Origin: Actinopolymorpha singaporensis
GTDB lineage: Bacteria > Actinomycetota > Actinomycetes > Propionibacteriales > Actinopolymorphaceae
Assembly (NCBI RefSeq): GCF_900104745.1
Contig: NZ_LT629732.1
Span: 5,071,981-5,135,980 of the forward strand
Direction of reading: 5' to 3'
DNA: 64,000 nt
Part shown: positions 29,911 to 63,375 of the stretch, piece after piece
Position numbering within the stretch: the stretch's first letter is position 1
Layout: the number at the start of each line of letters is the position of its first letter
Notes under the pieces: model-generated
Told to the model about the DNA's origin: nothing
The model's database searches: none
The model's input: only the letters and a program-made list of their open reading frames with translations
Program-made: the position numbers and the translations under genes

Positions 29911-30561
29911 ATGCAGCCCGTCCTGCCGCTGTCCGCGAGGGTTCGCCGGACCGACAGCGCCACTGACGAGGACGACGACGACCGCTTCTCCGAGGAGCTG
30001 GTCGAGGCGTTTCTCACCGCGTACACCTCTCCCGGTGACGTCGTTCTCGACCCGTTCGCCGGGTTCGGGACCACCCTGGTCGTCGCGGAGAAGCTGGGCC
30101 GGCGGCCGGTCGGGCTGGAGATCCTGCCCAGCAGGGTCGCGTACGTGCGGGAACGTCTGCGTGACCCGTCGGCGATCATCGAGGGGGACGCCCGCCGGCT
30201 CGGGGAGCTCGACCTGCCATCGGTCGACTTCACGATGACCTCCCCGCCGTACATGACGAGGTCGGACCATCCGGAGAACCCGCTCAACGGGTACCGCACC
30301 GACGACGGCGACTACGGCCGTTACCTCGACGAGCTGACCGCGGTGTACGCGTCGATCGGCAGGCTCCTGAGCGGACCCGAGTCTCGGGCGGTGGTCAACG
30401 TGGCGAACCTGCGTACCGACACCGGCGTCTCCCCCCTCGCGTGGGACGTGGGTGCCGCACTGTCGCGCGTACTCGCGTTCGACCAGGAGGTCGTCCTGGA
30501 CTGGGCAGACCCCGAGGACTGGTACACCAACGACTACTGCCTCGTCTTTCAGCGGCGCTGA
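29911..30561 (+). CDS. Orphan DNA methyltransferase (TSPPY type)
   Basis: A 216-aa AdoMet-dependent DNA methyltransferase. The AdoMet motif I DPFAGFGTT (residues 47-55) comes before the catalytic motif IV TSPPY (110-114); TSPPY is typical of N4-cytosine enzymes, though some N6-adenine enzymes carry it. The motif order I then IV is permuted relative to most beta-class N4C enzymes, and there is no evident separate target-recognition domain. No restriction endonuclease is adjacent, so this is a solitary enzyme. It overlaps the convergent Cpt-like gene by 13 bp. A GAGAAT hexamer ends 8 nt before ATG 29911. Confidence 0.8.
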   Translation: MQPVLPLSARVRRTDSATDEDDDDRFSEELVEAFLTAYTSPGDVVLDPFAGFGTTLVVAEKLGRRPVGLEILPSRVAYVRERLRDPSAIIEGDARRLGELDLPSVDFTMTSPPYMTRSDHPENPLNGYRTDDGDYGRYLDELTAVYASIGRLLSGPESRAVVNVANLRTDTGVSPLAWDVGAALSRVLAFDQEVVLDWADPEDWYTNDYCLVFQRR

Positions 30562-31106
30562 GTCTGCTCTGCCTTGGTGACCCTGGCGGCGATGACCTGC
30601 GCGCATTCCAGGGCGCTCGTCGTGGAGGTGTCGACCTCGAGGTCGTAGCTCACTCCCTCGTGGACGAGCAGCGCCTGGGACGCAGCCATCCCGACGGTAC
30701 GGTCACCGCGGGCGGCCTCCCGCGCCGCGGCCACGTCGGGGTCGCAGCGCACGCCGACCCACAGCACGGGAAGGCCTTCCAGCGCGTTCCGCCAGCGATC
30801 CTGTGACGCCGCGCCGCCGAGGAAGACCTCGTCGACGATCACCTGCGCGCCGGCCCGTACCATCGCGGCGATCCCCAGGCTCCACGCGACGTCGAGCGCC
30901 TTGAACACCTCTCCGGTCGTGACCTCCCCGTCGGCTCCGAACCCGATTCCGGCGTCTGCGTTCGTCAGGGAGGGAGGCATCGCGTCGACCAGGGTGTCGG
31001 TCCCGAACGTCAGCCACGGCGTGGACAGGATCGACTGCAGGCACGCCGCGATCGACGACTTGCCGGTACTCGACCCGCCGTTCAGCACGATCACCTGGTA
31101 GGACAC
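30549..31106 (-). CDS. Chloramphenicol phosphotransferase-like P-loop kinase
   Basis: A 185-aa protein with Walker A GGSSTGKSS (residues 10-18), the Cpt-like substrate block WLTFGTDTLVDAMP, and QVIVDEVFLGG. The family includes Streptomyces venezuelae Cpt, which phosphorylates chloramphenicol, but most members have unknown small-molecule substrates. The GTG start at 31106 has TAGCAT ending 6 nt upstream, pointing to a leaderless mRNA. The 3' end overlaps the convergent DNA methyltransferase. Resistance activity should not be assumed from family alone. Confidence 0.8.
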   Translation of the reverse strand: MSYQVIVLNGGSSTGKSSIAACLQSILSTPWLTFGTDTLVDAMPPSLTNADAGIGFGADGEVTTGEVFKALDVAWSLGIAAMVRAGAQVIVDEVFLGGAASQDRWRNALEGLPVLWVGVRCDPDVAAAREAARGDRTVGMAASQALLVHEGVSYDLEVDTSTTSALECAQVIAARVTKAEQTQRR

Positions 31107-36029: not shown

Positions 36030-37400
36030 ATGCTGACCGACGTTCCGAAGCTCGCCGGCGCGCGGGTCACCGTGATGGGTCTCGGCCTGTTCGGCGCGGG
36101 GATGGGCGTGACGAAGTTCCTGTGCCGATCGGGTGCGCGCGTCACCGTCACCGACCTCCACGACGAGCACCAGCTCAGGGAGTCGGTGGCGGCACTCGAC
36201 GGCTGGCCGGTCGACTTCCACCTCGGGGGGCACCGCGAGGAGGACTTCACCCGCGCCGACCTGGTCGTCGTCAGCCCGGGCGTGCCGGACGAGTCGCCCT
36301 GGCCGGGACTCGCCAACGCGTTGGAGGCGGAGCTGAACCTGTTCGTGAAGCTCTGCCCGGCGCGTACGGTCTACGGCATCACCGGCTCCAACGGCAAGTC
36401 CACCACGACGACGCTGATCGGCCGGATTCTCGCCCGCGGACCTCGCCGGGTCTGGGTCGGCGGCAACCTTGGGGTTTCCCTGCTGGACCGCCTCGACGAG
36501 ATCCGCCGGGACGACATCGTCGTACTCGAACTCTCCAGCTTCCAACTGCAACGGCTGGCTCCGCTGCGGTGGAGCCCCCAGGTGTCGGTCGTCACCAACA
36601 TCACTCCCAACCACCTCGACCGGCACGGCACGATGGCCCGTTACGTCGAGGCCAAGCAGACGATCGTCCGTCACCAACGCGAGGGCGACGTACGAGTGCT
36701 GAACGCCGACGACCCGTTCGCCGCGCAGTTCACCGGACACTTCGCCGATGACGGCATCGAGGGCCCACCTTCCGTGCGCTGGTTCGGTGCGAACGCAGCG
36801 GTCGACGGCACCCGGATCGGCGACGAGGTGATCGAGCACGCCGGCCACCTGTTCGACGTCCGCAACCGCCGGCTGCCCGGGAGATTCCAGCTGCACAACC
36901 TCGCCGCGGCCACCGCCGCCACCGCGGACGCCTTTCCCGGCTGGGCGCAGGCAGCGGCCGAGATCATGGCGAGCTTTCCCGGGGTGGAGCACCGGCTGGA
37001 GTTCGTCGGCGAGATCGACGGTGTCGCCTACTACGACGACTCGATCGCCACCACGCCCGAACGCACCCTGGCCGCCCTGGACACCCTGCCCGGGCCACTG
37101 GTGATCCTGCTCGGCGGTTACGACAAGGGGCTGTCCTTCGACGCCCTCGGCGCTCGGGTCCGGGAACGCTGCCGGGACGCGGTGGTGTTCGGGCAGACCT
37201 CCGACACACTGGCCGAGGCCATCGGTGCCGACCGGACCGGCGTCCACCGGGCGGCCTCGTTCGAGGACGCGGTCGGCCGGGCGCGTGCGCTGGCCCGGCC
37301 CGGCGACACGGTGCTGTTGTCACCGGCCTGCGCGAGCTACGGATGGTTTCGCAACTTCACCGAACGCGGACGCAGGTTCAAGGAACTCGTCCGGGACTGA
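36030..37400 (+). CDS. murD: UDP-N-acetylmuramoylalanine--D-glutamate ligase (stand-alone)
   Basis: A 456-aa Mur ligase adding D-Glu to UDP-MurNAc-L-Ala in peptidoglycan synthesis. The order is an N-terminal Rossmann-type UDP-binding domain (VTVMGLGLFGAGMGVTKFL), the ATP loop GITGSNGKSTTTTL, NITPNHLDRHGTMARYVEAKQTI, LPGRFQLHNLAAATAA, then the C-terminal FPGVEHRLEFVGEIDGVAYYDDSIATTPERTLAAL and GGYDKGLSFD. It is not inside a dcw cell-division cluster. CAGAAT ends 6 nt before the ATG, pointing to a leaderless mRNA. It could be a second murD-like gene; that cannot be judged from this window. Confidence 0.9.
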   Translation: MLTDVPKLAGARVTVMGLGLFGAGMGVTKFLCRSGARVTVTDLHDEHQLRESVAALDGWPVDFHLGGHREEDFTRADLVVVSPGVPDESPWPGLANALEAELNLFVKLCPARTVYGITGSNGKSTTTTLIGRILARGPRRVWVGGNLGVSLLDRLDEIRRDDIVVLELSSFQLQRLAPLRWSPQVSVVTNITPNHLDRHGTMARYVEAKQTIVRHQREGDVRVLNADDPFAAQFTGHFADDGIEGPPSVRWFGANAAVDGTRIGDEVIEHAGHLFDVRNRRLPGRFQLHNLAAATAATADAFPGWAQAAAEIMASFPGVEHRLEFVGEIDGVAYYDDSIATTPERTLAALDTLPGPLVILLGGYDKGLSFDALGARVRERCRDAVVFGQTSDTLAEAIGADRTGVHRAASFEDAVGRARALARPGDTVLLSPACASYGWFRNFTERGRRFKELVRD

Positions 37401-37458
37401 ATGGATCCCGGCCGACCGAGCCCGAGCCACTTCGCAACACACGTTAGGGTTCGGCAGC

Positions 37459-38283
37459 ATGTCCCTCGCAGCTGACGGCGGATTCGAAGAGCTGAAGCCG
37501 CCCAGCACGATCCGCGCTCTGGTGTTCGACTTCGACGGTCTGGTGGTCGACACCGAGACACCGGAGTTCCGGGCGTGGCAGGAGATCTTCGCCGACCACG
37601 GCACCGTGCTCGAGCTGGCGACGTGGGCGGGCGGAATCGGTACGACCGACCACCACTTCGACCCGTACGTCGCACTCGAACGCGCCTCGGCCCGCGCCGT
37701 CGACCGGGACGCCATCCGCGCTGCGCGGCGGGCCCGAATTCGGGAACTCGTCAGCGACCAGCCCGTCCTGCCCGGTGTCGAGGACTACCTCCGGCAGGCC
37801 CGCGAACACGGACTCCGGGTCGGCCTGGCGTCCAGTTCGTCCCGTGACTGGGTGCACGGCCACCTGGCCGAACGCGGCCTGCTGCACCACTTCGACACGA
37901 TCCGCACCGGTGACGAGGTGGCGCGCACCAAACCCGATCCGGCGCTGTATCGGCTGGCGACGGCCGACCTGGGCGTGGACCCGGCGCGGGCGGTCGCGCT
38001 GGAGGACTCCCCCAACGGCGTGGTTGCGGCCAAGCGGGCCGGGCTGTACTGCGTCGTGGTGCCGAACGCCCTGACCCGTCAACTCGACCTTGCGGCGGCC
38101 GAACTCCGGGTCGACTCGCTTGCCAACCTCCCGTTGACACGGTTGCTGGAAATGGCTCGGGCATGGGCCGAAGGCGCACCCGGGCCGAACCACCATCCGA
38201 TCCCGGGCCGAACCACCGGCCCAGCCACCGTCCCAGCCACCGGCGCCGGCCACCGTCCCGAGCCGGGAGCGAAAAGGTGGTGA
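37459..38283 (+). CDS. HAD superfamily hydrolase (phosphatase / beta-phosphoglucomutase-like)
   Basis: A 274-aa protein. Motif I is FDFDGLVVDTETP, motif II SSSSRDW, motif III/IV GDEVARTKPDPALY and VALEDSPNGVVAAKRAGL, typical of HAD subfamily IA phosphatases and beta-phosphoglucomutase relatives. The last ~35 residues are a Pro/Gly/His-rich tail built from short repeats and are outside the fold. ATG 37459 follows TAGGGT by 8 nt. It lies 58 bp after murD; the substrate is unknown. Confidence 0.87.
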   Translation: MSLAADGGFEELKPPSTIRALVFDFDGLVVDTETPEFRAWQEIFADHGTVLELATWAGGIGTTDHHFDPYVALERASARAVDRDAIRAARRARIRELVSDQPVLPGVEDYLRQAREHGLRVGLASSSSRDWVHGHLAERGLLHHFDTIRTGDEVARTKPDPALYRLATADLGVDPARAVALEDSPNGVVAAKRAGLYCVVVPNALTRQLDLAAAELRVDSLANLPLTRLLEMARAWAEGAPGPNHHPIPGRTTGPATVPATGAGHRPEPGAKRW

Positions 38284-38317
38284 CACCCCGGCAGAGCACC
38301 TATAGCGTCTCGGGGTC

Positions 38318-39019
38318 ATGAGCTCCCCCTCCTCGGCCGGCGACCACGTGCCACCCGCGCGAGCCACCTCCCCGGGCGCGGAGTTCTGCATGGAGTGCGG
38401 CCCAGAGACCGCGCTGCGCCCTCACGACACCGCGGACGGTGCGGCGTTCGGGGCTCGGTGCCCCCGGTGCGGCTGGGAGCGTCCCTTCACCCGGCGGCCG
38501 CTGCTGCTCCTCACCGGCGCGAGCGGCACCGGGAAGACCACGGTCACCGACGAGCTCACCAGGCTGGCCGAGCGCGGCGGCCTGCCCGGCTGCGCGGTGT
38601 TCGACGTCGACCTCACCCTGCACGTCGCCGCCTTGGGCTGGGACGTCTGGCGCAACACCTGGCTGCAGCTCGCGCACGGGCTCGCCGGCAACGGCCTGGC
38701 CACGTTGCTGTGCGGGACGATCCTTCCCGGCCAGCTGGCGGGCCTGCCTGCCCGGATGCTGGTCGGTCCGATCCACCACGCCGCCCTGGACTGTCCGGAC
38801 GACGTACTCGCCGGGCGTCTTCGGGACCGGCCGGCGTGGCGCGGCTCGACCGAGGAGTTCGTCGCCGACCAGCTTCGTTTCGCCGAGTGGCATCGTTCCC
38901 AGGTCGGCCGGAGGTTCGGCACGCATCGATCCGATCCGGCGGCGGTGGCTGCCGAGGTCGCGGTGTGGGTACGCGAGGTGCTGGGCACGACGACGAAGAC
39001 GACGGGAGGTGCCCGGTGA
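38318..39019 (+). CDS. Zinc-ribbon P-loop kinase/ATPase coupled to class I LysRS
   Basis: A 233-aa protein with a Cys4 zinc ribbon at the N-terminus (C24, C27, C48, C51) and Walker A GASGTGKTT beginning at G67. A nucleoside/adenylate-kinase-like body follows (VFDVDLTLHVAALGWDVWR; a lid-like RLRDRPAWRGSTEEFVADQL). Its stop overlaps the GTG of the next gene by 4 bases (GTGA), so translation is coupled with class I lysyl-tRNA synthetase. The substrate is not known. A TAGCGT hexamer ends 9 nt before ATG 38318. The pairing suggests a function around tRNA-Lys or aminoacylation, which is inference. Confidence 0.7.
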   Translation: MSSPSSAGDHVPPARATSPGAEFCMECGPETALRPHDTADGAAFGARCPRCGWERPFTRRPLLLLTGASGTGKTTVTDELTRLAERGGLPGCAVFDVDLTLHVAALGWDVWRNTWLQLAHGLAGNGLATLLCGTILPGQLAGLPARMLVGPIHHAALDCPDDVLAGRLRDRPAWRGSTEEFVADQLRFAEWHRSQVGRRFGTHRSDPAAVAAEVAVWVREVLGTTTKTTGGAR

Positions 39020-40767
39020 CCGGCACCGAGGGCAGCGACTGGGTGAGCCGTACCGCCGACGAGGTGATCGCCGAAGCCGACCGCCGTGCGCCCGGCGCGC
39101 CGGTCGTGTGTGCCTCCGGCCTCAGCCCGTCCGGCCCGATCCACCTGGGCAACCTCCGCGAGCTGATGGTCCCCCACCTGGTCGCCGACGAGGTCCGCCG
39201 CCGTGGCCGGGAGTGCGTCCACCTGCTGTCCTGGGACGACTACGACCGGCTGCGAAGGGTTCCGGCCGGGCTGCCGCCGTCGTTCGCCGACCACGTCGGC
39301 CGCCCGCTGACCGCCGTACCCGATCCCGACGGCGTCCACGACAGCTGGGCCGAACGCTTCAAGGCTCCGGTGCGGGCTGCCATGGACGCGCTCGGCATCG
39401 AGGTACGCGAGATCAGCCAGACCGCGATGTACGCCTCCGGGACGTACGCCGACGCGATCCTGCACGCTCTCGACGAACGCGCCCGCATCGACTCGATCCT
39501 GGCCCGCTACCGCACCCGGCCAGGAGCCGGCGGCTCAGCCGCCACCGAGGAAACCACGGACGCCGGGGAAGCAGGGGACGCCGTAGGCCCGGACTCGGCT
39601 GCCCGCCTCTACTACCCCTACCGGCCGTACTGCCACCGGTGTGGCCGCGACACCACACAGGTGACGTCCTACGACGCCGCCGGCGCGTGGGTCGACTACG
39701 CCTGCGCCGCCTGCGGGCACCGCGACCGCGTGCACCTGCGCGAGGACAACCACGGCAAGCTGGTGTGGAAGGTCGACTGGCCGATGCGCTGGGCCCACGA
39801 GCGTGTCACGTTCGAACCCTTCGGCGCCGACCACTCGGCCCCGGGGTCCTCCTACACCGTCGGCGCACAGGTGGTCCGCGAGGTGTTCGGCGGGCAGCCG
39901 CCGGTCCCGTTGGCGTACTCCTTCGTGGGCATCCGCGGCATGGCGAAGATGTCGAGTTCGGCCGGTGGCGTCCCGACCCCGGCCGACGGGCTGCGGATCC
40001 TGGAGCCCGCGGTGCTGCGCTGGCTGTACGCCAGGCGGCTGCCCGGCCAGGCGTTCACCATCGACTTCGGGGCGGAGGTGAGCCGGCTGTACGACGAGTG
40101 GGACCGGCTCGCCGAGCGCATCGAGGCCGGGCAGGCGCAGCCGTGGGAGCGCGACGTCGCCGACCGAGCGACCACGACCAGCCGTGGCCGGGTCGCCGGC
40201 CCGCGCCGCCGGGTGTCGTTCCGCGTCCTCGCCTCCCTCCTCGACGTCACCGCGGGCGACACCGCCCAGGTCGGCCGGATCCTCACCGGTTTCGACGACG
40301 GCGCACCCGGCATCACCGTCGACGACGTCGAGCCGCGGCTGAGTCTTGCCCGCACCTGGCTGGCCGAGCAGGTGCCCGCCGAGGAACGCACCCACGTACG
40401 CACCGAGCCCGACACCGACCTGCTGGCCTCGCTGTCCGCCGAGGACGCGGCGTCCCTGCGCGAGCTGACCACCCGGCTGACCGACGACTGGACGCTTACC
40501 GGGCTGACCCGCCTGGTGTACGGCGTACCGAAGCTGAGGGCGGGCCTGACCCTGGACGACCCGGCGACGGCGGAGGTCAAACGCGCGCAGCGGGGATTCT
40601 TCCGGTTGCTGTACCGCCTGCTCGTAGGCGCCGACCGCGGGCCGCGGCTGCCGACCCTGCTGCTGGCGCTGGGTCCGGACCGGGTGCGGGCCCTGCTCGC
40701 AGAAGGCGGCCCGCTCCAGGAGGCAGGTACGTCCGGCGGGGATAACCGGCTGACCGAACCTGGCTAG
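39016..40767 (+). CDS. lysS: Lysine--tRNA ligase, class I
   Basis: A 583-aa class I (Rossmann) lysyl-tRNA synthetase. SGLSPSGPIHLGNLRELM contains the HIGH-type motif (HLGN at residue 43) and KMSSSAG (K311) is the KMSKS loop. A Cys4 knob is visible (CHRCGRDTTQ, CAACGH). The C-terminal helical anticodon-binding domain is present. Class I LysRS is the archaeal-type enzyme, found in a minority of bacteria including some actinobacteria, some of which also have the class II enzyme. GTG 39016 overlaps the upstream kinase-like gene. Whether this is the sole LysRS cannot be told here. Confidence 0.92.
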   Translation: MTGTEGSDWVSRTADEVIAEADRRAPGAPVVCASGLSPSGPIHLGNLRELMVPHLVADEVRRRGRECVHLLSWDDYDRLRRVPAGLPPSFADHVGRPLTAVPDPDGVHDSWAERFKAPVRAAMDALGIEVREISQTAMYASGTYADAILHALDERARIDSILARYRTRPGAGGSAATEETTDAGEAGDAVGPDSAARLYYPYRPYCHRCGRDTTQVTSYDAAGAWVDYACAACGHRDRVHLREDNHGKLVWKVDWPMRWAHERVTFEPFGADHSAPGSSYTVGAQVVREVFGGQPPVPLAYSFVGIRGMAKMSSSAGGVPTPADGLRILEPAVLRWLYARRLPGQAFTIDFGAEVSRLYDEWDRLAERIEAGQAQPWERDVADRATTTSRGRVAGPRRRVSFRVLASLLDVTAGDTAQVGRILTGFDDGAPGITVDDVEPRLSLARTWLAEQVPAEERTHVRTEPDTDLLASLSAEDAASLRELTTRLTDDWTLTGLTRLVYGVPKLRAGLTLDDPATAEVKRAQRGFFRLLYRLLVGADRGPRLPTLLLALGPDRVRALLAEGGPLQEAGTSGGDNRLTEPG

Positions 40768-40845
40768 AACCCGGCCGGCGAGGTGCGACTCCCGGCTCAC
40801 CTTCGTACGGTGGAAGGGATCCCCGAACGCTGCCAGGGAGGCATC

Positions 40846-41676
40846 GTGACCACCGTCGTGGAAACACCCCAGGTTCTGAGTGACGCAGAGATCACGCAGT
40901 TCTGGGAGCAGGGTTATCTCCTCGTGCGCGGAGCAATCTCCCGGGAGGAGGCGGCCCACTACCGCGACCACATCCTGGACATGATTCCGCGCAACCTCGC
41001 CTTGCCCGAGCACTGGCACTCCGCCGCGGGCCGGATCAAGCCGATGCGCAACGCCCACGACCACACCTTCGACACACCGGAACTCCTGCCGCTGTGGGCG
41101 AACGAGAAGCTGTACCACGTCGCCGCGCAACTGCTGGAGTCGACGCGGCTGCGGGTGCTGGACGGTTCGCTCGGCATCACCCTGCGCAACGACAGCGACC
41201 GGGACCGCGCGCTCAGCCAGACGCTGCACATCGACGCGTCGGTGCCGACCGACATCGACCAGTTCCTGTTCTCGCTGGCCGAGGTGCAGATCGGCGGCTG
41301 CTTCTACTTCACCGACGTACTCCCGAACGGCGGCGGCATCCACGTCGTACCCGGCGGTCACCGGATCGTGGAGGAGGAGGCCCGCGCCCACCCGCAGGGC
41401 CGGCACCTGTACGACAACTGGAAGCGCATCACCCACCTGGAAAGCGTCGAGGTCACCGGCGAGGCCGGCGACTTCGCGCTGCTGCACCATCTGATGCCGC
41501 ACGGCGCGTCGCACAACCGCCGGTCCACGCCGCGGGTGGCGCAGTTCCTGCGGTGGGTACGCGAGGACCAGCCGCATGGCGCGGGCAAGGCGCCGGAGCC
41601 GGGCCGGTACGGCGCACGCCAGCTGGAGGCGGCCGGTCCCCTCGGCCGCAAGCTGCTCGGCGTCGAGCCCTGGTAG
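40846..41676 (+). CDS. Phytanoyl-CoA dioxygenase (PhyH) family protein
   Basis: A 276-aa Fe(II)/2-oxoglutarate-dependent oxygenase. The GTG start has GGGAGG about 5 nt upstream. The iron triad is H128-x-D130 in QTLHIDAS and H219 in LMPHGAS, with Arg residues in the following NRRSTPR as candidate 2-oxoglutarate anchors. The double-stranded beta-helix is further marked by GGGIHVVPGGHR. It is 6 bp upstream of manD, so they are probably one operon. The substrate is unknown, possibly a sugar-derived or small hydroxylated compound given its partner. Confidence 0.87.
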   Translation: MTTVVETPQVLSDAEITQFWEQGYLLVRGAISREEAAHYRDHILDMIPRNLALPEHWHSAAGRIKPMRNAHDHTFDTPELLPLWANEKLYHVAAQLLESTRLRVLDGSLGITLRNDSDRDRALSQTLHIDASVPTDIDQFLFSLAEVQIGGCFYFTDVLPNGGGIHVVPGGHRIVEEEARAHPQGRHLYDNWKRITHLESVEVTGEAGDFALLHHLMPHGASHNRRSTPRVAQFLRWVREDQPHGAGKAPEPGRYGARQLEAAGPLGRKLLGVEPW

Positions 41677-41682
41677 GCCGGC

Positions 41683-42888
41683 ATGAGGATCACCGGTGCC
41701 CGGGTGATCGTGACCTCACCCGGGCGGAACTTCGTCACGTTGAAGGTCGAGACCGACGAGGGCGTCCACGGCATCGGGGACGGCACTCTCAACGGCCGTG
41801 AGCTCGCCGTGGCGTCCTACCTCGCCGACCACGTGGTGCCCATGCTGGAAGGCCGCGACCCGGCCGACATCGAGGACACCTGGCAACTGCTCTACAAGGG
41901 CGCGTACTGGCGGCGTGGCCCGGTGACGATGGCCGCGATCGCCGCCGTGGACATGGCGTTGTGGGACATCAAGGGGAAGGTCCTCGGCACCCCGGTCCAC
42001 AACCTGCTCGGCGGCCGGTCGAGGCGCGGCGTGCTGTGTTACGCCCACGCCTCCGGCCGGACGATCGAGGACACCGTGGAGCAGGTGCTCCGGCTGCGGG
42101 AGGAGGGCTACCGTGCGATCCGGGCGCAGTGCGTCGTGCCCGGCATCGACAACATGTACGGCACGCCGCGCGGCGACGTGTCCGGACAGCGGCCCGACCT
42201 GCCGTTCGTCGAGGACGGCTGGGCGAGTGAGAAGTACCTCCGATTCGCGCCCGAACTGTTCGCCCGGATCCGGGAGGCTGTCGGCTTCGACGTCCACCTG
42301 CTGCACGATGCTCACCACCGGCTGACCCCGGCCGAGGCGGGCTGGCTGGGCCGGCGACTGGAGGACCACCAGCTGTTCTGGCTGGAGGACGCCGTACCCG
42401 CCGAACTGCAGGAGAGCTTCCGGGTGATCCGGCAGCACACCACCACCCCGCTGGCGGTGGGCGAGGTGTTCAACTCGCTGTACGACTGTCACCAGCTGAT
42501 CCGCGAACAGCTGATCGACTACATCCGGGCCAGCGTCGTGCACGCGGGCGGGATCACCCACCTGCGCAAGATCGCGCACTTCGCCGAGCCGTACCACGTC
42601 CGTACCGGGTGCCACGGCGCCGCCGACCTGTCGCCGGTCTCGATGGCGGCCGCGCTGCACTTCGGCCTGGCCACCCACAACGCGGCGATCCAGGAGTACG
42701 GCCACCACAGCGAGGAGACGCTCGAGGTCTTCCCGCGTGCCTGGTCGTTTGCCGACGGCTACCTTCACCCCGGTGAGGCGCCCGGACTGGGCGTGGACAT
42801 CGACGAGGGTCTCGCCGCGAAGTACGAGTACCAGCGCGGCTACCTGCCGGTCAGCCGCCGGGTGGACGGCACCGTCGGGAGCTGGTGA
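41683..42888 (+). CDS. manD: Mannonate dehydratase-type enolase superfamily enzyme (ManD)
   Basis: A 401-aa member of the mandelate racemase/enolase superfamily ManD subgroup, which dehydrates D-mannonate (or gluconate) to 2-keto-3-deoxygluconate, some members with low activity. Recognisable are [85 protein letters not shown], and [19 protein letters not shown]. It follows phyH by 6 bp. Its last 38 bp overlap the convergent nucleotidyltransferase gene. True mannonate activity is not certain; several ManD proteins are catalytically poor. Confidence 0.88.
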
Positions 42889-43744
42889 GCTCCGCCTCGG
42901 TGGCTTCGGCTCGAGCCGGGGCTCGGTCCTGAGCCTCGGCTTCGACCCACCCGGCCAGCCGGTCGGGTGGGTCGAAGCCCCACATCGCGGCGAGCGCGCG
43001 CCACAGCCGGTCCCCCAGCGCCCACGCGGAGTCGTACGCCCGGGCGAGGTCGGCCGGCTCGGTGCGGGCGGAGACACGCCCCAGGGCCTCGACCACCTCC
43101 GGGGCCAGGTCCCGTTCGGCCAGCCGGGACGGCGTGAGCCATCGCCCGGTGGCGTCACCGGACAGCCGGGCCATCCACAACAGCTCGCGGCGTACGTGCG
43201 CGAGCGCGTCCTGGGAACGTTCCCACTCACCTCGGCCCGAGACGTTGTGGCCGAGCACCCACCAGTTGGCGAACCGCCCGCAGACCTGCGCAACCTCCGC
43301 CGCGGTGCCCGGCACGCGTGGATCTTCGGGGAGTGCCGCCACCGCGGGCGTCAGCGCGCCGTCCCGGTCCAGCACCACCATCGCCTCCACCGGCGCGCCC
43401 CGCGCCGGCCAGCCGCGTACGACGTCGACATCCGCGGCCGGCCACACGTGCACCTCCACACGTACCAGCCCGGCGTGCACCGCGACCCAGGCGCCGAACT
43501 CGTTGCGCACCAGCAGCGCCGGGTCACCGACCTCGCACAGCCACTTCGGCGGGTGCTCGAGGTGGTCGGCGGCCGACTGCTCGTCCGCCACGAACACCCA
43601 GTACTCCACGTCCGACCACGCGTCGCCCAGCCCGGCCGGCCGGGATCCGTAGGTGAGCGCGGCGCGAACCCGCTCGTCGGCAGTGAACGCCGCGCGGTAC
43701 GCCGCGTCGAGCGCGTCCTGCCGCGAAGTGGCCGAAGAAGACAT
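42851..43744 (-). CDS. Nucleotidyltransferase (lincosamide NTase-like)
   Basis: A 297-aa protein with the polymerase-beta-type nucleotidyltransferase core: [20 protein letters not shown] (GS-x-DxE), and [13 protein letters not shown]. The helical C-terminal part resembles LnuB/LnuF-type lincosamide nucleotidyltransferases and related unknowns. The second acidic residue is Glu rather than Asp in DVE. ATG 43744 is chosen, 10 bp after the upstream NTase stop. The 3' end runs 38 bp into manD on the other strand. Antibiotic modification is only a family possibility. Confidence 0.72.
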
Positions 43745-43754
43745 GGAGCCGGCG

Positions 43755-44594
43755 TCAGCCGCCGCGGACGTCGGCGAGCAGTCGCTCGGCGTCGTCCAGC
43801 CGGGCGGTGAGTTCGGCAGGCGTGGCGCCGATCCGGCCGCACAGCACCTGGGCACGGGCCGTGAACTCGGCCGGTGCGCCCGGCAGCCGGCCGGCCGCGG
43901 CGACCAGGCCCTTCTCGTTCAGCACCCACCGGCCGGCACGGGCGTGCAGCGCGTGCGCCATGATGCCGACCGCCCGCAGCACGCACATCGCGACGTACGC
44001 CGCGTCGCCGCGCCCGGTCGCCTTGCGAGCCACCGCGAGGCTGAAGTCCGCCTCCCACAGCCAGCCGACGAGCGCGTCGCGCAGTGGTTCGGGATACCGC
44101 GCGGCGGCCTGCCGGAGCCGGCCCACCTCGCCGGTCGGGTCGGCGACGACGACCGCGGTCGCGAGCTCCCCGACGTAGGTCGTACTGAGGAATCCGAACG
44201 GGTGACCCGGCTGGTGGTGCAGTCCGAACTCCCCGCGCCGGGCTCGTTCCCATTCGTGGGTGACCCGGTCCAGGTCGCGGAGGATCCAGTCCACGGGGCC
44301 TGAGTCGGTGGACAGCCATGCGCCGCCGTTCACCCACGGCCCCCACCCACCTGGCGGAGCGACCTCGGTGGGCCGGCCGGAGAGCGTGGTCGCCAGGTCG
44401 GCCAGCGCCGAGACGTCGAGGGGTTCTCGGTAGTAGAGGCCGAGATCGAGGTCGGAGGTGGCGTCGGCGGTTCCGCTGGCGTGGCTGCCGCCCACCACCA
44501 CCGCGACCACGCCCTTCACCTCGACCAGCGCCCGCGCGTGCGTACGCGCCGTCGCCATCGGATCCACGGCGGCGGCGAAGGACGGCTCAGTCAC
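43755..44594 (-). CDS. Nucleotidyltransferase domain protein
   Basis: A 279-aa protein with a minimal nucleotidyltransferase motif GGSHASGTADATSDLDLGLYY (GS-x-DxD), followed by a helical domain rich in Ala and Leu. GTG 44594 is chosen because it overlaps the stop of the DUF3817 gene by 8 nt, indicating coupling; an upstream in-frame start at 44630 is possible. It lies next to a second NTase gene (10 bp), so the two are co-transcribed. The substrate is unknown. Confidence 0.72.
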   Translation of the reverse strand: MTEPSFAAAVDPMATARTHARALVEVKGVVAVVVGGSHASGTADATSDLDLGLYYREPLDVSALADLATTLSGRPTEVAPPGGWGPWVNGGAWLSTDSGPVDWILRDLDRVTHEWERARRGEFGLHHQPGHPFGFLSTTYVGELATAVVVADPTGEVGRLRQAAARYPEPLRDALVGWLWEADFSLAVARKATGRGDAAYVAMCVLRAVGIMAHALHARAGRWVLNEKGLVAAAGRLPGAPAEFTARAQVLCGRIGATPAELTARLDDAERLLADVRGG

Positions 44595-62529: not shown

Positions 62530-62692
62530 TAGCTCCGCCCGGCGGTGTCGTCAGACCCGGTACTTCCATCGGGCGGAGACGGAGGAACCACATACGGACC
62601 CGGTGACGGGTCCTGGGGTGAAGCCGCCTCGGCGGCCGGGCACTTCCTCTCGCCCGAATCCGACAGCTAACTCCGCAGGCGACGGGAGGGAA
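62530..62692 (+). ncRNA. c-di-AMP riboswitch (ydaO/yuaA type)
   Basis: The leader shows the conserved ydaO features in order: stem CTCCGCCC/GGGCGGAG, GGAGGAACCA, GGGGTGAA, and the block CCCGAATCCGACAGCTAAC followed by GCAGGCGACGGGAGGGA. Such riboswitches precede Rpf and other cell-wall hydrolase genes in actinobacteria (known for Streptomyces) and turn the gene off when c-di-AMP is high. The 3' end overlaps the ribosome-binding region of the next gene. Confidence 0.9.
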
Positions 62693-62700
62693 CCGATCTC

Positions 62701-63375
62701 ATGGCCTATCAGGCAAAGCACCGCGGCGCCAGTCGTTCGAAGACCGTCGCCAAGCGCGTCACGCAGACCGCCGCCGTCACCGGTATCGCCGCCGCCGTCC
62801 CCGTGGTCGGAATGGCCGCTCCGGCCCACGCCGCCAGCACCGACACGTGGGAGCGCCTCGCCCAGTGCGAGAGCAGCGGCAACTGGCACATCAACACCGG
62901 CAACGGCTTCTACGGCGGCCTGCAGTTCACCCGTTCGACCTGGACCGGCTTCGGTGGCGGCAAGTACGCCTCCCGCGCCGACTACGCCAGCAAGTGGCAG
63001 CAGATCGCCATCGCCGAGAAGGTCCTGAAGGTGCAGGGCTGGAACGCCTGGCCTGCATGCTCGGCCAAGCTCGGCCTCGGCTCCGGCGACAAGGGCGGCA
63101 GCCCGAACACGCGCGCCCAGACGCAGGAGCGCAAGCAGCACAGCACCCGCTCCTCGCGTGGCACCTCCCGGCCGAAGATCGTGGCCAGGTCCACGCACTC
63201 CCGGCACGCGGCCACCGGCGCCAGGTACGTCGTCCGTCCGGGCGACACCCTGTCGACCATCGCGCAGGCGCAGGGTGTCGACGGCGGCTGGCGGGCGCTG
63301 TGGAAGCTCAACCGGAAGCTGGTCGGGAGCAACCCCAACCTGATCTTCCCGAACGAGCGGCTCCGCCTCGGCTGA
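62701..63375 (+). CDS. Resuscitation-promoting-factor-like transglycosylase with LysM domain
   Basis: A 224-aa exported cell-wall hydrolase. The signal peptide ends in PAHA-A. The Rpf domain follows (WERLAQCESSGNWHINTGNGFYGGLQFTRSTW, with the catalytic Glu in AQCESSG, and WQQIAIAEKVLKVQGWNAWPACS). A basic Ser/Thr linker and a C-terminal LysM peptidoglycan-binding domain (YVVRPGDTLSTIAQAQG to FPNERLRLG) complete it. The ribosome site is GGGAGGGAACC before ATG 62701. It cleaves peptidoglycan during growth or germination and is controlled by the riboswitch upstream. Confidence 0.92.
   Translation: MAYQAKHRGASRSKTVAKRVTQTAAVTGIAAAVPVVGMAAPAHAASTDTWERLAQCESSGNWHINTGNGFYGGLQFTRSTWTGFGGGKYASRADYASKWQQIAIAEKVLKVQGWNAWPACSAKLGLGSGDKGGSPNTRAQTQERKQHSTRSSRGTSRPKIVARSTHSRHAATGARYVVRPGDTLSTIAQAQGVDGGWRALWKLNRKLVGSNPNLIFPNERLRLG

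Follow-up and report, generated by a model that had tools for sequence, protein, structure and literature searches.

Actinopolymorpha singaporensis carries a gene for a class I lysyl-tRNA synthetase (LysRS1) whose start codon overlaps the stop codon of a gene for a small kinase-like protein (Table 1). The question raised by this locus is whether the two products work together and, if so, what such a pair might do in a bacterium that also encodes a class II enzyme. The stretch of DNA analysed here, hereafter the window, is 64,000 nucleotides long and corresponds to positions 5071981-5135980 of contig 1 in a single-contig 6.40-Mb genome. A first-pass annotation had described the two genes as translationally coupled and had proposed either a tRNA-Lys-related activity or a resistance device against a lysine mimic. 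Judging from titles and the opening parts of abstracts, no paper on this pair was among those listed in searches of the open-licence literature.

Table 1. Features of the kinase-LysRS1 locus (window coordinates)
Feature	Position	Strand	Details and evidence
Second MurD paralog, first gene of the same-strand run	36030..37400	+	TIGR01087, 360.7 bits (cut-off 211.95)
HAD-family phosphatase	37459..38283	+	PF00702/PF13419, E~1e-25 on the longer ORF; start from gene caller
Zinc-ribbon P-loop kinase-like gene	38318..39019	+	233 aa; ATG at 38318, TGA ending at 39019
Predicted Cys4 zinc ribbon, C24-x2-C27 ... C48-x2-C51	38387..38470	+	Alignment and model
P-loop GASGTGKT, kinase residues 67-74	38516..38539	+	Sequence and alignment
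GGAGG, likely LysRS1 ribosome-binding site inside the kinase gene	39005..39009	+	6 bases before GTG
GTGA stop/start overlap of kinase and LysRS1, 4 nt	39016..39019	+	Sequence
Class I lysyl-tRNA synthetase (LysRS1) gene	39016..40767	+	583 aa; GTG start, TAG stop ending at 40767
PhyH-family dioxygenase, next downstream of LysRS1	40810..41676	+	PF05721, E=1.8e-11; longer ORF from 40783
ManD-type dehydratase	41683..42888	+	NF043051, 655.8 bits (cut-off 550)

By its sequence, the downstream product is an archaeal-type class I LysRS, in agreement with the first-pass annotation. It matches PF01921 (380.1 bits for a cut-off of 27, E=1.2e-113), TIGR00467 (317.2 bits for a cut-off of 147.55) and the Pyrococcus horikoshii LysRS structure 1IRX (E=4.2e-79). 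Its HLGN and KMSSS motifs align with HVGN and KMSGS of 1IRX, which are of the HIGH and KMSKS types, and intact motifs are common to other actinobacterial LysRS1. The protein would be expected to aminoacylate tRNA. Pairwise dN/dS values within Actinopolymorpha range from 0.14 to 0.31 for LysRS1 and from 0.25 to 0.36 for the kinase. The LysRS1 tree comprised 22 sequences including that of the window, 11 of 32 loci having been excluded by a failed motif filter.

The GTGA overlap is present as first described, and by itself it is ordinary: with a rough GC-bias gene caller, which missed LysRS1 in two of the loci compared (L117 and L118), exact 4-nt overlaps were found in four of the 31 co-directional neighbour pairs of the window. 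A scan of positions 37380-40900 returned neither promoters nor terminators, a result of little weight in a GC-rich actinobacterium. T-box control of LysRS1 was considered and rejected, no T-box being detected in the window at Rfam gathering scores; the only riboswitch is a distant c-di-AMP element (ydaO/yuaA leader, 62546-62695, + strand, 64.3 bits) before a gene called at 62701. Elsewhere in the window are a chloramphenicol phosphotransferase-like gene (30549-31106, - strand, PF07931, E=1.1e-61) and, at 42851-44594 on the - strand, adjoining genes with a LinB-type nucleotidyltransferase C-terminal domain and an NTP_transf_2 match. A higher-scoring MurD is located at genome positions 5281078-5282460 amid other Mur-ligase-like matches, and two MurD matches occur in six of the seven other Actinopolymorphaceae genomes.

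Of the eight Actinopolymorphaceae genomes compared, five have the two genes side by side, and all five are among the six Actinopolymorpha genomes. The 4-nt overlap and the preceding GGAGG are kept in all five of these loci, window included, and the geometry of translational coupling proposed at first is thus upheld; it persists down to 75% identity for LysRS1 and 63% for the kinase, with the overlap reading ATGA instead of GTGA in A. pittospori. Co-translation of the two genes in the genus is probable. These numbers have to be weighed against the possibility that a rearrangement in the ancestor of the genus placed LysRS1 behind an unrelated kinase and that synteny simply persisted. The whole block (MurD, HAD, kinase, LysRS1, PhyH and ManD) is syntenic in the four other Actinopolymorpha genomes with the pair, PhyH following LysRS1 in each, so that the flanking MurD-HAD and PhyH-ManD pairs were kept as well; 4-nt overlaps are common, and the pair is seen in a single genus. 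Against such chance neighbourhood, the kinase and LysRS1 genes of A. pittospori are still joined despite three minus-strand genes (as called by the GC-bias caller) that separate HAD from the kinase.

The sixth Actinopolymorpha genome (G018) also bears on this point. LysRS1 was not found in this draft assembly (130 contigs, 95% complete), and its absence is uncertain for that reason. Just ahead of the PhyH gene is a 41-aa match to the C-terminus of the kinase (39% identity, E=2.7e-4), the next match of the same search (E=0.007) looking like chance. Matches to HAD (60%), MurD (34%, perhaps a non-ortholog) and PhyH (72%) are grouped within 12 kb in this genome. Either both genes were lost from this genome and left a kinase remnant, or LysRS1 entered the other branch later; the two genes look as if they were kept or lost together. 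The junction conserved in five of five loci, the genes still joined in A. pittospori and their apparent joint absence from G018 speak for a possible functional partnership; mere chance neighbourhood is considered unlikely. A genome from another genus of the family (G015) contains both genes about 200 kb apart, its kinase gene standing some 20 nt from an ORF that is presumably RpiB-like. In the kinase tree, this sequence is placed beside Actinopolymorpha (support 90/81, with long branches flagged), a position consistent with a kinase that was inherited and became paired with LysRS1 later. At the level of the genus, the kinase-LysRS1 link is sound but narrow.

Outside Actinopolymorpha, the picture is different. 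In a sample of the order, LysRS1 was found in 37 of 147 genomes and the kinase query matched ten at E<=1e-8 and six at E<1e-30, these six being all LysRS1-positive. In a sample of the phylum, LysRS1 occurred in 54 of 396 genomes and the kinase query matched two (window included) at E<=1e-8, in a search that scored few candidates per genome (seven of those from the first look). Among 51 LysRS1-centred loci (43 distinct places, five in the genus and 38 outside; 30 loci with flanks of at most 1.5 kb), a kinase profile matched seven, all from five Actinopolymorpha genomes, and the kinase was absent from the examined flanks of the 38 places outside the genus. Conversely, LysRS1 was present in six of 64 kinase-centred loci, a set with flanks from 1.5 kb upward in which some loci are repeated and some are paralogs lacking the Cys4 ribbon; all six were from Actinopolymorpha and none of the loci outside it had LysRS1. 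The order and phylum samples together gave 85 LysRS1-positive genomes outside the genus, from which the 38 places were inspected for the kinase; when these samples were searched for the kinase across whole genomes, with few candidates scored per genome, only G015 among the 85 had a match at E<=1e-8. Each protein is thus usually found without the other. The conservation of the pairing that had been anticipated holds for five of the six Actinopolymorpha genomes and not beyond the genus in the loci examined, and a general LysRS1-kinase module was rejected. Seen in one genus only among the genomes examined, with proteins that mostly occur apart, the pair appears to be a minor local oddity and not a system of a new kind.

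The class II enzyme that had been expected elsewhere in the genome was found. Besides a stand-alone class II lysS (genome positions 2214402-2215862, 505-aa frame), A. singaporensis has a 1143-aa open frame that contains another class II match (4355086-4356564). The latter probably represents a fusion of MprF and LysRS, which according to PMC2922099 would be expected to serve lipid lysylation. The stand-alone gene is present in all six Actinopolymorpha genomes; G018, in which LysRS1 was not found, has in addition a third class II match (contig 1, 69396-70859, 412.2 bits for a cut-off of 427.6). This survey was extended to 33 hand-picked genomes, 28 of them LysRS1-positive, from the positives of the order and phylum samples. 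In thirteen of the 28, nothing matched class II LysRS at E<=1e-60, so that LysRS1 appears to be their sole LysRS, and ten had a class II match only in a frame of more than 1000 aa (an open frame, in which a fusion is not proven). In the remaining five, all Actinopolymorphaceae, the class II gene occupies a frame of 504-539 aa; the corresponding frames of the five LysRS1-negative genomes measure 504-575 aa. With the window genome included, six of the 29 LysRS1 genomes checked, all six Actinopolymorphaceae, also encode a stand-alone class II enzyme. Since the stand-alone gene is present, LysRS1 is redundant by gene content in A. singaporensis. The six genomes offer a clear natural example of bacteria with a redundant class I LysRS beside a stand-alone class II enzyme, in which the "safety net" idea could be tested: for coexisting LysRS1 and LysRS2, a "safety net" or protection from lysine analogues has been proposed (PMC1475646, section 15). 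Among 45 tRNA matches in the genome, there was one tRNA-Lys(CTT), one tRNA-Lys(TTT) and no special tRNA-Lys.

The kinase stays below the curated cut-off of every Pfam and NCBIfam model, its best Pfam matches being sub-threshold P-loop domains (AAA_18, E=7.7e-6). In an alignment of 24 sequences (that of locus L079 taken in frame), the invariant columns include C24, C27, C48 and C51, the Walker A residues G67, G72 and K73, D98, R146, and the presumed lid arginines R167 and R171. The two conserved CxxC pairs are predicted to form the zinc ribbon that had been noticed at first. In the AlphaFold2 model (mean pLDDT 87.7), the kinase core is preceded by an N-terminal part rich in beta structure, where the strands of the ribbon region fall between residues 28 and 57. 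Foldseek and VIA-align comparisons revealed a tie between hCINAP, chloramphenicol phosphotransferase (CPT), and guanylate, adenylate, NMP, APS, gluconate and shikimate kinases, with query-normalised TM values of 0.38-0.52 in the Foldseek top 50 and, among the VIA-align matches listed, Z scores of 12.1-13.6 and rmsd of 2.7-4.3. The model thus suggests a P-loop kinase fold of a generic kind, which does not point to a particular substrate; with so many kinase types tied, the fold does not decide between them, although a small molecule is the likely class. Known defence systems were set aside, since no PADLOC match was obtained at E<=0.01 for the kinase, LysRS1, one kinase relative and its neighbour. 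So was a phage origin: no phage record matched the kinase at E<=1e-5 and PHROGs matches were weak. Plasmid records contained two distant relatives, one from a haloarchaeon (annotated as a hypothetical protein) and one from Paenibacillus.

A kinase that acts on tRNA-Lys, Lys-tRNA-Lys or LysRS1 itself, in a PSTK-like or regulatory manner and with an RNA-binding zinc ribbon, would account for the one-operon geometry and the invariant Cys4 motif. O-phosphoseryl-tRNA kinase structures (3a4l, 3add and 3adb) are indeed in the Foldseek top 50, and tRNA isopentenyltransferases (3exa, 2qgn and 2zm5, Z 12.1-12.6) in the top VIA-align matches. Yet these tRNA-related structures, the three O-phosphoseryl-tRNA kinases included, match no better than metabolic kinases and fall in the same score ranges; A. 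singaporensis has only ordinary tRNA-Lys genes, and kinase loci outside Actinopolymorpha lack LysRS1. Such a role is very unlikely, and the proposal that the pair is a general tRNA-Lys activity finds no support in a link restricted to one genus and a generic fold.

A resistance module may also be considered, in which LysRS1 would be an insensitive copy and the kinase would inactivate, in a CPT-like manner, a lysine-like or LysRS2-directed antibiotic. Protection from lysine analogues has been put forward for coexisting LysRS enzymes (PMC1475646, as noted above), the structural matches include CPT 1qhs (Z 13.1, rmsd 3.1), and the coupled geometry is kept in Actinopolymorpha. In addition, the second MurD stands two genes upstream of the kinase, which places paralogs of two essential enzymes, MurD and LysRS1, in one gene run. 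The CPT match is nonetheless shared with many metabolic kinases, kinase loci outside the genus are without LysRS1, and a Pfam scan of 23 window genes (27066-49992) gave no sign of a biosynthetic cluster. The complete module is distinctly unlikely. Resistance to a lysine mimic thus survives from the first-pass annotation as a possibility for LysRS1 alone, by reference to PMC1475646, and nothing found here ties the kinase to it.

The two genes are best accounted for by an accessory LysRS1, a "safety net" enzyme, that is co-translated in Actinopolymorpha with a small-molecule kinase which is not a general tRNA-Lys factor, a reading to which we give slightly better than even chances. LysRS1 would charge both of the tRNA-Lys species that the housekeeping class II enzyme serves and would act as a back-up tolerating conditions or lysine analogues that hamper the latter, a tolerance that is suggested by analogy with other LysRS1 in the literature. 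In the Actinopolymorpha lineage, its gene would have come to lie behind that of the kinase, the two being co-translated, and the kinase would most likely phosphorylate a small metabolite or nucleotide. A closer association may also be envisaged, namely a genus-specific device in which the kinase phosphorylates a lysine-like inhibitor, Lys-tRNA or LysRS1, and the spare LysRS1 thereby functions, or is switched, under a block of the class II enzyme; this is improbable.

Beyond LysRS1, these analyses expose an unnamed zinc-ribbon kinase family that spans several actinobacterial families. A profile search revealed relatives in 33 of 296 genomes of the class (window included). In 28 (L072-L099) of the 29 class-level loci with the best scores, from which the window was omitted, a gene for a TFIIB-type zinc-ribbon/proline-rich protein is located directly upstream of the kinase gene. 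This steady neighbour is a small protein that contains a proline-rich stretch and ends in a KRRKSFLEDLFD-like sequence, and the three proteins scanned all match PF13453. It was found upstream of the kinase in none of ten Actinopolymorpha loci, nor in five further loci (those of G015 and G292, that of a second Cys4 kinase in G011, and the two plasmid records).

Several known or related systems can be compared with the pair. CPT and the gluconate, shikimate, APS and NMP kinases share with the window kinase the fold of residues ~58-227, the P-loop and the conserved pair of arginines in the presumed lid, but the window kinase has an extra N-terminal Cys4 ribbon and its sequence identity to the structure matches listed is only 11-25%. 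The TFIIB-neighboured kinases are closer, with a Cys4 ribbon, a P-loop kinase and 32-40% identity, yet they adjoin a PF13453-type gene whereas the window kinase adjoins LysRS1. Streptomyces- and Nocardioides-like LysRS1 (names inferred) belong to the same subfamily as those of Actinopolymorpha and have the same motifs; in the genomes checked, they either stand alone or are accompanied by class II matches only in a frame of more than 1000 aa and, unlike in Actinopolymorpha, have no Cys4 P-loop kinase in the flanks examined. LysRS1 with loss of LysRS2 has been reported for two Streptomyces species (PMC1475646). A further parallel is Bacillus cereus lysK, where LysRS1 occurs alongside LysRS2 (PMC1475646 and PMC2916919), a class I enzyme being added to a class II enzyme as in A. 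singaporensis. The B. cereus gene has a T-box, in contrast to the window at Rfam gathering scores. As regards tRNA-Other, the sole CCA-anticodon tRNA among the 45 A. singaporensis matches is called as tRNA-Trp. In contrast to lysK, the LysRS1 gene of A. singaporensis overlaps a kinase gene.
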